A stretch of 34,513 nt of DNA from assembly GCA_024232855.1 (NCBI GenBank), contig JAAEPH010000012.1, positions 1-34,513 of the forward strand, given 5' to 3'. The notes below the pieces were generated by a model. The model made no database searches and had not been told where the DNA came from. It saw only the letters and a program-made list of their open reading frames with translations. A program made the translations under genes and the position numbers. The stretch's first letter is position 1. Every line of letters begins with the position of its first letter. The stretch comes from Gammaproteobacteria bacterium. Lineage in GTDB: Bacteria > Pseudomonadota > Gammaproteobacteria > GCA-001735895. Shown one piece after another: positions 11,639-34,443 of this stretch.

Positions 11639-13057
11639 ATGACTGGAAAAACCTTATACGACAAGATCTGGGATTTGCACCAGGTGCATGGCGACGACGA
11701 TGCGTCGGCGCTGCTGTATATCGATCGCCACCTGGTGCACGAAGTGACTTCACCGCAAGCCTTCGAAGGGCTTGAAATCGCGCAGCGCCCGCTCTGGCGC
11801 AAACGCTCGATACTGGCCGTGCCCGATCACAACGTGCCCACGACCGGGCTTGAACAGGGTATTACCGACCCGGTGGCGCGCCTTCAGGTCGATACGCTCA
11901 ACGTCAATTGCGACAAGTATGAGCTGACCGAATTCAAGATGGGCGATATACGCCAGGGCATCGTACACGTTATCGGCCCGGAGCAGGGTGCTACCCTGCC
12001 GGGTATGACGGTGGTCTGCGGAGACTCGCATACGTCAACTCACGGGGCTTTCGCCGCGCTCGCGTTCGGCATTGGCACCTCCGAGGTCGAGCATGTCATG
12101 GCGACGCAATGCCTGATTCAGAAAAAGTCGAAAAACATGCGTGTTACCGTAACCGGAGCCGTTGCCGAGGGTATTACCGCCAAGGATATCGTCTTGCATA
12201 TCATCGGTGAGATCGGCACTGCTGGCGGTACCGGCTGTACCATCGAGTTTGCCGGTGAAGCCATTACCGACCTTTCCATGGAAGGACGAATGACGGTCTG
12301 CAACATGACCATCGAGGCCGGCGCGCGCGCCGGCCTGATCGCCTGCGATCAAACCACGCTGGCTTATATCGAGGGGCGTCCGTTTGCGCCCAGCGGTGAA
12401 ACCTGGGATCAGGCGGTCGAGGCCTGGAGTGATCTGCATTCCGATGAAGATGCGATTTTTGATCGCGAAGTCGTCATCGATGCCGCCGATATTGCACCGC
12501 AGGTAACCTGGGGCACTTCACCGGAAATGGTTTGCGCCGTAAGCGACAGGATCCCCGACCCGGCGCGGGAGCCGGATCCGATCAGGGCCGGCGGCATGCG
12601 GGCGGCGCTCGATTACATGGGCCTGGAGGCAAATGCAACCTTCGACGAAGTGAGGGTGGACAAGATTTTCATCGGCTCCTGCACCAACTCGCGCATCGAG
12701 GATTTGCGCGCCGCGGCGATAGTCCTCAAGGGGCGAAAGCTGGCGGACAACGTCAAACTCGCCATGGTGGTTCCCGGGTCGGGATTGATTAAGCAGCAGG
12801 CCGAGGAAGAGGGTCTGGACCGGGTCTTCCTTACGGCGGGCTTCGAGTGGCGCGAGCCGGGCTGTTCGATGTGCCTGGGTATGAATGCCGATCGCCTCGA
12901 GCCCGGCGAACGTTGCGCCTCGACCTCGAATCGCAATTTCGAGGGGCGCCAGGGCCAGGGCGGCCGCACTCACCTGGTTTCGCCGGCGATGGCGGCGGCG
13001 GCCGCTGTCAAGGGATATTTTGTAGATGTGCGTAGGCTGACGCGAGGTGAAGCATGA
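11639..13057 (+). CDS. leuC: 3-isopropylmalate dehydratase large subunit
   Basis: A 472-aa aconitase-family subunit (E. coli 466 aa). With LeuD it isomerises 2-isopropylmalate to 3-isopropylmalate in leucine synthesis. The three cysteines binding the 4Fe-4S cluster are Cys348 (IGSCTNSR), Cys409 and Cys412 (GCSMCLGMN). N-terminal [13 protein letters not shown] and [20 protein letters not shown] are typical of LeuC. The ribosome binding site is weak. The stop overlaps leuD by four bases (ATGA), giving translational coupling of the two subunits. Confidence 0.97.
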
Positions 13058-32496: not shown

Positions 32497-33882
32497 ATGC
32501 TGAAGATATACAATAGCCTGACTAATCGAAAAGAAACCTTTGAACCGATTATTCCCGAACAGGTGCGGATGTATGTCTGTGGCATGACGGTTTACGATTA
32601 TTGCCATATTGGCCACGCCAGGGTTCTGGTGGTGTTCGACGTGGTTTACCGCTACCTGGAGCACCTCGGTTACGAGGTGACCTACGTGCGTAACATCACC
32701 GACGTCGATGACAAAATCATCAGTCGCGCCAACGAAAATGACGAGGATTGTGATCATTTGACCGAGCGCTTTATCGGAGCAATGCATGAAGATGCCGATG
32801 CGCTCGGAGTCTTGCGTCCGGACAGGGAACCGCGCGCCACCGAGACTATCGATGAGATGCTGGCAATGATCGAGGTACTCGAGCACGGCGGCTATGCCTA
32901 TCAGGCCGATAATGGCGACGTCTACTTTGCCGTTGCCAGGTTTGCCAGTTACGGCCAGCTGTCGGGCAAGAAAATTGCCGAGCTACGCGCCGGTGAACGG
33001 GTAGAAGTGGATGAGGGTAAACGGGATCCGCTGGATTTCGTGCTGTGGAAGTCCGCCAAACCCGATGAGCCCAGCTGGCCCTCGAAATATGGCAATGGCC
33101 GACCGGGCTGGCATATCGAATGCTCGGCCATGTCTCGCAATCTGCTCGGTAATCATTTCGACATTCACGGTGGAGGCCAGGATTTGCAATTTCCGCATCA
33201 CGAGAACGAGATTGCGCAGAGCGAAGCCTGTAACGGTGAAAAATTTGTCAATTACTGGATGCACAATGGTTTCGTACGCGTCAACGAGGAGAAGATGTCG
33301 AAATCGCTGGGCAATTTTTTTATCCTGCGCGACGTGCTGGAAAGTTATCGCGCGGAGGAAATTCGCTACTTTATCGTCAGCAGCCATTACCGCAGTCAGA
33401 TTAATTACTCGGAGGAACAGCTCGATAACGCGCACGCGGCGCTACAGCGGCTTTATGCCGCGCTGCAGGACACCAGGCTAACCGAAATTCCCGGGGACAG
33501 TGAGTATCAGCAGCGCTTTGAACAGGCCTTAAACGATGATTTCAATACCGCAAACGCGATTGCGGTGCTGTTTGACCTGGTCCGTGAAATCAATCGCGCC
33601 AAGAACGCCGGGCTGGAACTGCAGCATTCGCTGGCAAGCCTGTTGCGTTTCCTGGGAGGGATTTTAGGGTTGTTACAGGCCGAACCGGAAGATTTTCTGA
33701 AATCCAGGGCCGGGCCTGGAGGCGGACTGAGCGACGCCGCCATCGATGAACTGGTCGAAGCGAGATTGCAGGCGCGCGCTAATAAAGACTGGGCCAATGC
33801 CGACCGCATTCGTGATGAACTCGTCGATGCCGGCATCGTAATTGAAGATGGCAGCGATGGCACGCGCTGGCGCCGTGCCTAG
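32497..33882 (+). CDS. cysS: Cysteinyl-tRNA synthetase
   Basis: A 461-aa class I aminoacyl-tRNA synthetase (E. coli 461 aa) that charges tRNA-Cys. The HIGH motif is CHIGHAR (His37 to His40), the first zinc ligand is Cys28 in [10 protein letters not shown], further zinc residues lie in [10 protein letters not shown] and the [11 protein letters not shown] segment, and the KMSKS loop is residues 266-270. The C-terminal anticodon-binding domain is complete. No strong ribosome binding site precedes the ATG. It diverges from ppiB across 141 bp and is followed by the tRNA operon. Confidence 0.97.
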
Positions 33883-33994: not shown

Positions 33995-34071
33995 CGGGGT
34001 GTAGCGCAGCCTGGTAGCGCAACTGCTTTGGGAGCAGTGGGTCGGGAGTTCGAATCTCTCCACCCCGACCA
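33995..34071 (+). tRNA. tRNA-Pro (UGG)
   Basis: A 77-nt cloverleaf with acceptor stem CGGGGTG/CACCCCG, anticodon stem ACTGC/GCAGT around loop TTTGGGA (anticodon TGG, 34029-34031), T-loop TTCGAAT and an encoded CCA end. First gene of the tRNA operon. Confidence 0.96.
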
Positions 34072-34121: not shown

Positions 34122-34443
34122 GCGCCCGTAGCTCATTTGGATAGGGCATCGGCCTTTAGGCGCACAGGTTGGGCCTGTGCACTAAGGAGCCTCGCCGGGG
34201 AAACTGAACCCGGAGAGTGGATCGCACCGTATCGGGGAAACCTTAGCAGTCCGCCTGGATCAGGCTGAGCTGATGGCAATCCCGAGGAAACCTGTTTTCG
34301 AAGGGTTCCGTAGAGACTATACGTGCGACACCTGAGATGGTGAAGAGATAGTCCAGACCACAAACTCGTAGTATGAGGCGTCGAAAGGCGTAGTTGGTAA
34401 GCTAAGCCGAGGGTAGCAGGTTCGAATCCTGCCGGGCGTGCCA
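34122..34443 (+). tRNA. argU: tRNA-Arg (UCU), interrupted by a group I intron
   Basis: The 5' exon is 34122-34156 and the 3' exon 34402-34443. Joined, they give a 77-nt tRNA with acceptor GCGCCCG/CGGGCGT, D-stem GCTC/GGGC, anticodon stem TCGGC/GCCGA, loop CTTCTAA (anticodon TCT), T-arm GCAGG-TTCGAAT-CCTGC and encoded CCA. It closely resembles E. coli argU. The intron cuts between the first and second anticodon bases. This is the only junction that restores a normal 7-nt loop with a terminal intron G. This tRNA reads AGA and AGG codons. Confidence 0.93.
34157..34401 (+). ncRNA. Group I self-splicing intron in tRNA-Arg(UCU)
   Basis: A 245-nt intron ending in G. Pairings seen: a P1-side hairpin GCACAGG/CCTGTGC (34162-34168/34174-34180); guide GGAGCC (34186-34191) facing exon GGCCTT with G-U at the splice site; P2 CTCGCCGGG/CCCGGAGAG (34191-34199/34209-34217); TCGGG/CCCGA (34232-34236/34281-34285) in the P4-P5 region; P3 TCGCAC/GTGCGA (34222-34227/34323-34328); P7 GACTA/TAGTC (34315-34319/34349-34353); P8 CACC/GGTG (34329-34332/34339-34342); and a GAAA-capped hairpin near 34378-34389. 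Size and core resemble the small IC3-type tRNA introns of Azoarcus and Agrobacterium. No homing endonuclease gene is present. Confidence 0.9.

Follow-up and report, generated by a model that had tools for sequence, protein, structure and literature searches.

The tRNA-Arg(UCU) gene of the window (the whole 34,513-nucleotide stretch of DNA analysed here, which is contig C12 of genome G000, a 4.15-Mb MAG from a marine bacterium, 97% complete and divided in 546 contigs) is split by a group I intron inserted between anticodon bases U34 and C35. The 35-nt 5′ exon ends with TCGGCCTT and the 42-nt 3′ exon begins with CTAAGCCGA (Table 1). The gene was missed by ARAGORN when introns were disallowed, and was called as tRNA-Arg(tct) with an intron of 245 nt when they were allowed. 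Once joined, the exons give a cloverleaf with a UCU anticodon (computed fold, −31.4 kcal/mol). An uninterrupted tRNA-Arg(UCU) is found in 19 congeners; these intronless genes are identical at 77 of 77 bases to the query, which differs from the window exons at one base. Compared with uninterrupted congeners, the window exons show an identity of 100% (3′ exon) and 97% (5′ exon). The original prediction had placed a 245-nt insert between anticodon positions 34 and 35, which was right to the base, and had proposed that the exons join to a standard tRNA-Arg(UCU), a claim borne out by the intron-tolerant ARAGORN call, the joined-exon cloverleaf and the uninterrupted congeners.

Table 1. Features of the split tRNA-Arg(UCU) locus, parts of its intron and related phage loci (window positions, unless a locus is named).
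Feature	Position	Strand	Basis or remark
cysS	32497-33882		TIGR00435, 578 bits
tRNA-Pro(UGG), upstream neighbour	33995..34071	+	Pro-Arg-His order common to most relatives
tRNA-Arg(UCU) 5′ exon, up to anticodon position 34 (U)	34122..34156	+	sequence; ARAGORN with introns; uninterrupted in congeners
P1 exon strand GGCCUU, last U forming U.G with the guide sequence	34151..34156	+	both U.G pairs invariant (44/44)
Group I intron, IC3-like, 245 nt, no ORF; omega-G = 34401	34157..34401	+	covariation; core covariance model 143 bits; Rfam 21.2 bits
P1-extending hairpin (GCACAGG/CCUGUGC)	34162..34180	+	sequence, MFE fold; many relatives have none or a dissimilar one
Internal guide sequence GGAGCC (P1 intron strand)	34186..34191	+	invariant, 44 introns
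P2 hairpin (34192-34199 with 34209-34216)	34192..34216	+	both-side changes in 8/8 pairs
P3 5′ strand, partner 34321-34328	34222..34230	+	both-side changes in 4/8 pairs
P4 5′ strand, partner 34281-34285	34232..34236	+	both-side changes in 2/5 pairs
P5 (34241-34242/34275-34276) and P5a (34247-34249/34270-34272)	34241..34276	+	44-intron pair count
P6 (34286-34292 with 34303-34309)	34286..34309	+	P6 loop is the HEG site in relatives
Possible relic of endonuclease 3′ end, CGAAGGGTTCCGTAG = R-R-V-P-stop	34299..34313	+	T at GGTTCC position
P7 5′ strand (guanosine-binding helix), partner 34349-34353	34315..34319	+	invariant, 44 introns
P3 3′ strand, crosses P7 (pseudoknotted core)	34321..34328	+	44-intron pair count
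P8 hairpin	34329..34342	+	both-side changes in 2/4 pairs
P7 3′ strand	34349..34353	+	44-intron pair count
Hairpins P9 and P9b (GAAA closes P9b)	34365..34391	+	both-side changes in 7/8 pairs
tRNA-Arg(UCU) 3′ exon, anticodon position 35 to encoded CCA	34402..34443	+	sequence; ARAGORN with introns
tRNA-His, cut by contig end, continues on contig C97	34451..34513	+	contig-end overlap
Free-standing PF11645 endonucleases near intact tRNA-Arg(UCU), phages	L178 2351-2926, L179 1906-2441, L231-L266		

Comparative sequence analysis identifies the insert as a group I intron. An alignment was built from 44 same-site introns of three phyla that carry no homing endonuclease gene (HEG), and 53 pairs in P1, P2, P3, P4, P5, P5a, P6, P7, P8, P9 and P9b were defined on the window sequence before being counted across the alignment. 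Standard pairs occupy 98.7% of the cells, compared to 86.3% in column shuffles and 33–42% in slid versions. Both sides changed in 26 of the 53 pairs, with a covariation score of 0.372 (0.124 for shuffled and at most 0.068 for slid versions). Pairing within individual helices ranges from 92 to 100% of the cells, with both-side changes in P2, P3, P4, P5a, P6, P8, P9 and P9b. The P2, P3, P7 and P8 pairings of the original prediction are all paired in this alignment, but P7 is invariant in the 44 introns and its pairing thus receives no support from covariation. All 44 introns have a U.G at the 5′ splice site and end in G (omega-G). Because C54 faces an A in P1 of all members, the exact register of this helix rests on the tRNA reading frame. 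The MFE fold of the window intron is mildly better than that of shuffles (z −2.4). In a comparison with IC3 introns, layout and tRNA location match while the sequence of P6 is unlike the Azoarcus type.

The original prediction had proposed a covariance search for a group I core, whose outcome was divided. Rfam Intron_gpI (RF00028) scored 21.2 bits (E 0.004) at the window intron, which is below the gathering score of 50, a database threshold rather than a defining biochemical feature, and a search at that score missed the intron. With RF00028, scores of 57–78 bits were reached by the introns at this site in Aeromonas, Enterovibrio, Marinomonas and Fibrella. The core covariance model built from relatives gave 143 bits for the window, whose core is among the 18 training rows, and 101–159 bits in genomes outside the training set.

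The other arginine tRNAs of the assembly are Arg(CCG), Arg(ACG), found twice, and Arg(CCU). A second intact tRNA-Arg(UCU), named in the original prediction as an observation that would speak against it, was searched for in the assembly and none was found, in a MAG of 546 contigs that is without some tRNAs. An extra match on contig C97 was rejected as a second gene; it is the contig-end overlap leading into tRNA-His. AGA accounts for 17 of the 8801 codons in the 22 long ORFs of the window and is used in nine of them. As no other tRNA-Arg(UCU) was found, AGA decoding should depend on splicing of the intron. The claim that decoding of both AGA and AGG hangs on the split gene consequently holds for AGA; AGG does not depend on it because tRNA-Arg(CCU) is present. 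These data bear also on whether the insert could be dead, i.e., a non-splicing intron in a pseudogene, with AGA read by another tRNA. The fragmentation of the MAG, the predicted nature of splicing and the presence in some relatives of a further tRNA-Arg-like gene (about 80% identity) leave some room for this reading. It is nevertheless very improbable: the exons keep the identity to uninterrupted congeners given above, all core bases invariant across the three phyla are retained in the window copy, the assembly yielded no other tRNA-Arg(UCU), and AGA is in use in the window ORFs. Note that genome G000 has a second split tRNA gene, tRNA-Leu(UAA), with a 693-nt group I intron at 34/35 (G000:C481:4873-5652; L229). 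That intron has an antisense ORF with HNH-like Cys/His motifs and no Pfam family above cut-off.

The intron is present in five (G000, G003, G012, G013, G029) of the 24 typed genomes of the host genus and the gene is uninterrupted in the other 19; seven further genomes could not be typed and are outside the 24. One of the congeners, G029, proved to be the Olavius algarvensis Gamma 3 endosymbiont (a 100% match along 5000 nt), so this gammaproteobacterial genus includes a gutless-worm symbiont. The patchy presence within the genus, together with the failure to find a conserved accessory element, argues against a regulatory device in which splicing efficiency would set the supply of the AGA-decoding tRNA. 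We give this explanation hardly any credence, even if AGA is rare and the split gene is the only AGA decoder found. Group I introns were observed in tRNA-Gln(CUG) of five congeners (G002, G006, G012, G017, G030; L189-L193), and a weak intron-core match adjoins a LAGLIDADG-like ORF in G003 (G003:C7:41407-41614; L228).

A DNA pattern scan of 84,980 species matched at least 117 stretches, nearly all with a matching 5′ exon and full acceptor pairing. An intron at this site is carried by at least 115 contigs from Gammaproteobacteria (including Thiodiazotropha, Sedimenticola, Woeseiaceae, Aeromonas, Marinomonas and Enterovibrio), Bacilli (including Bacillus, Lysinibacillus and Thermoactinomycetaceae) and Bacteroidota, and among the matches listed the surrounding tRNA bodies are proper to each phylum. 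With the core covariance model, 51 of the 369 gammaproteobacterial genomes yielded related tRNA introns, located in the genes of tRNA-Arg(UCU), Leu(UAA), Gln(CUG), Arg(CCU), Ser(UGA) and others. The same-site contigs and the core-model matches rule out rarity of the tRNA-Arg(UCU) intron, and the original view that it is unusual in this lineage has to be abandoned in favor of a patchy distribution. Plasmids searched as possible carriers gave no PF11645 match and only weak intron-core matches; a search of E. coli returned no match.

A tree of 59 introns groups the GAGGAAAC-type Arg(UCU) introns from all three phyla in one clade (100/100), which includes also one intron located at 36/37 of tRNA-Arg(UCU) (G072). 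Five 34/35 introns fall outside this clade, those of Aeromonas, Enterovibrio, Marinomonas, Fibrella and a Chitinophagaceae MAG. The AU test rejects one origin for every Arg(UCU) 34/35 intron (p 3e-6), which implies more than one invasion of the 34/35 site. Phylum labels change four times on the main-clade tree, versus 30.8 times when shuffled, a clustering that speaks for descent or transfer mostly within phyla.

The window intron has no ORF and no intact endonuclease. The P6 loop of the G012 and G033 introns bears an ORF of family PF11645 (136 and 148 bits; cut-off 26.1) whose best solved relative is 2ost (phmmer, E 2e-7), which we take to be I-Ssp6803I. Among the at least 115 same-site introns an intact ORF is found in about 26, recognizable wrecks in about 17 and none in the rest. 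The same range is displayed by the congeners: the gene is full in G012, wrecked in G029 and missing in G000, G003 and G013. Intact, wrecked and absent genes thus place the genus at several stages of what reads, in these sequences, as a cycle of invasion and decay. The end of the ORF (last codons and stop, V-P-stop) overlaps P6 and J6/7. The 3′ strand of P6 is GG(T/C)TCC in each of the 25 typed introns whose gene is intact, and GGATCC in 40 of the 61 HEG-less ones; that of the window is GGTTCC, a hint that the endonuclease gene was lost recently. A PF11645 profile search of the G000 genome gave no match, a weak result as the controls also matched nowhere. In Bacteroidota, a tRNA-Arg(UCU) intron of another type (L041) has an antisense HNH-like ORF with no Pfam match, and the 34/35 site is perhaps used with a second kind of enzyme.

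Free-standing enzymes of the same family are encoded by Synechococcus phage Sf-FR1 (61% identity) and Acinetobacter phage Herod (44%), in both cases directly 3′ of an intact tRNA-Arg(tct). An intact tRNA-Arg(UCU) lies beside the enzyme in 32 of 37 viral loci (contigs with a relative). Two arrangements exist, with the enzyme either 3′ or 5′ of the tRNA: it is 39–77 nt downstream of tRNA-Arg(tct) in 19 of the 37 contigs, while in 13 the tRNA starts at or near the 3′ end of the enzyme gene. A 33rd viral neighbor (L230) is a tRNA called Pyl with the loop CTTCTAA. In an unrooted tree of 62 enzymes, a branch (86/81, not starred) has all 26 intron-borne enzymes on the same side, and one state change separates intron from virus. 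This topology and the position of the phage enzyme beside tRNA-Arg(UCU) suggest one capture from a phage endonuclease specific for tRNA-Arg(UCU), as in collaborative homing. The direction would be from phage to intron, in the order that collaborative homing predicts (review: PMC3984707). Salmonella phage Chennai encodes a distant PF11645 relative (31% identity; L181 1402-1989) after tRNA-Asn, which raises the possibility of family members dedicated to other tRNAs. The 484-kb uncultured phage LR756508.1 has an intron-core-like stretch (12191-12276) and a PF11645 relative (442646-442990) that are far apart.

We consider it highly probable that the window carries a homing-derived, HEG-less group I intron in tRNA-Arg(UCU) that persists by splicing; splicing, cleavage, homing and gene loss are the steps that we infer. 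The precursor tRNA would fold with GGCCUU, at the end of the 5′ exon, paired to the guide sequence GGAGCC. A P7-bound guanosine should make the first attack, after U34, and U34 once released would make the second, after G34401, joining the anticodon UCU. The insert would have arrived as a homing element: the PD-(D/E)XK endonuclease of its same-site relatives is expected to cut the anticodon region of an uninterrupted tRNA-Arg(UCU), and repair of the cut would copy the intron into the gene. The window copy would have subsequently lost the endonuclease gene, reaching a passive HEG-less stage that is kept since splicing persists. An extension to the whole Arg(UCU) 34/35 family is put forward more tentatively, its chance being close to even but short of it: this undescribed family, specific for that site and spread across the three phyla, would have acquired mobility once, through capture of a free-standing PD-(D/E)XK enzyme from phages, in which it adjoins intact tRNA-Arg(UCU) genes. 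Copies that have since become HEG-less, the window copy among them, may yet be mobilized in trans by enzymes of phages.

Mainly vertical descent with many losses, the endonuclease being incidental, would explain why the intron tree tracks phylum. It is an unlikely substitute for homing given that the intron occurs in so few of the typed congeners, that intact, wrecked and absent endonucleases are found side by side, that two unrelated intron lineages occupy the same site and that the phage enzyme adjoins the same tRNA in most loci. Vertical descent within families and occasional homing, the process preferred here for the origin of the window intron, can both hold.

Group IC3 introns are known in the bacterial genes of Azoarcus tRNA-Ile(CAU), Agrobacterium tRNA-Arg(CCU), cyanobacterial tRNA-Leu(UAA), which is interrupted at loop position 34/35, and tRNA-fMet. 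The Arg(UCU) family resembles them in size, P1–P9 layout, insertion in the anticodon loop, terminal G and U.G at the 5′ site. It differs by its host, tRNA-Arg(UCU), by forming its own clade and by the start of P6 (GAGGAAAC instead of the GAGCCAAGC of the known bacterial tRNA IC3 introns); the window intron differs from them also by an Rfam score below cut-off. In Synechocystis, the tRNA-fMet intron has a PD-(D/E)XK homing endonuclease, I-Ssp6803I (PDB 2ost). The P6-loop ORF of the relatives belongs, like it, to PF11645 and aligns to it over nearly the full length, including the D...QVK motif, but its host is tRNA-Arg(UCU), and the window copy is without ORF.

The hosts given in reviews for tRNA group I introns are cyanobacteria and alpha- and betaproteobacteria (PMC4033280), whereas the Arg(UCU) family is carried by Gammaproteobacteria, Bacilli and Bacteroidota, which are not listed for tRNA introns in PMC4033280, PMC3984707 and PMC8450103. 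No Arg(UCU) case was found described in a literature search limited to open-licence papers, which is weak evidence of novelty; the family is widespread and apparently unreported. It occupies a blind spot, this intron class being missed by tRNA gene finders and the general Rfam model, so that carrier genomes look as if they had no tRNA-Arg(UCU). tRNAscan-SE was not designed to find tRNA group I introns (PMC8450103). Intact, wrecked and empty introns within one genus provide a natural data set on how group I introns become mobile, and the free-standing phage enzyme beside the same target gene makes the capture route by collaborative homing testable. In phages, collaborative homing relies on an endonuclease that is free-standing and targets the site of intron insertion (PMC3984707). 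The present case differs in that the intron, with its putatively captured enzyme, resides in bacteria while the free-standing enzyme is in phages; it shares with that system the location of the phage PF11645 enzymes directly beside the uninterrupted gene that is the intron target.
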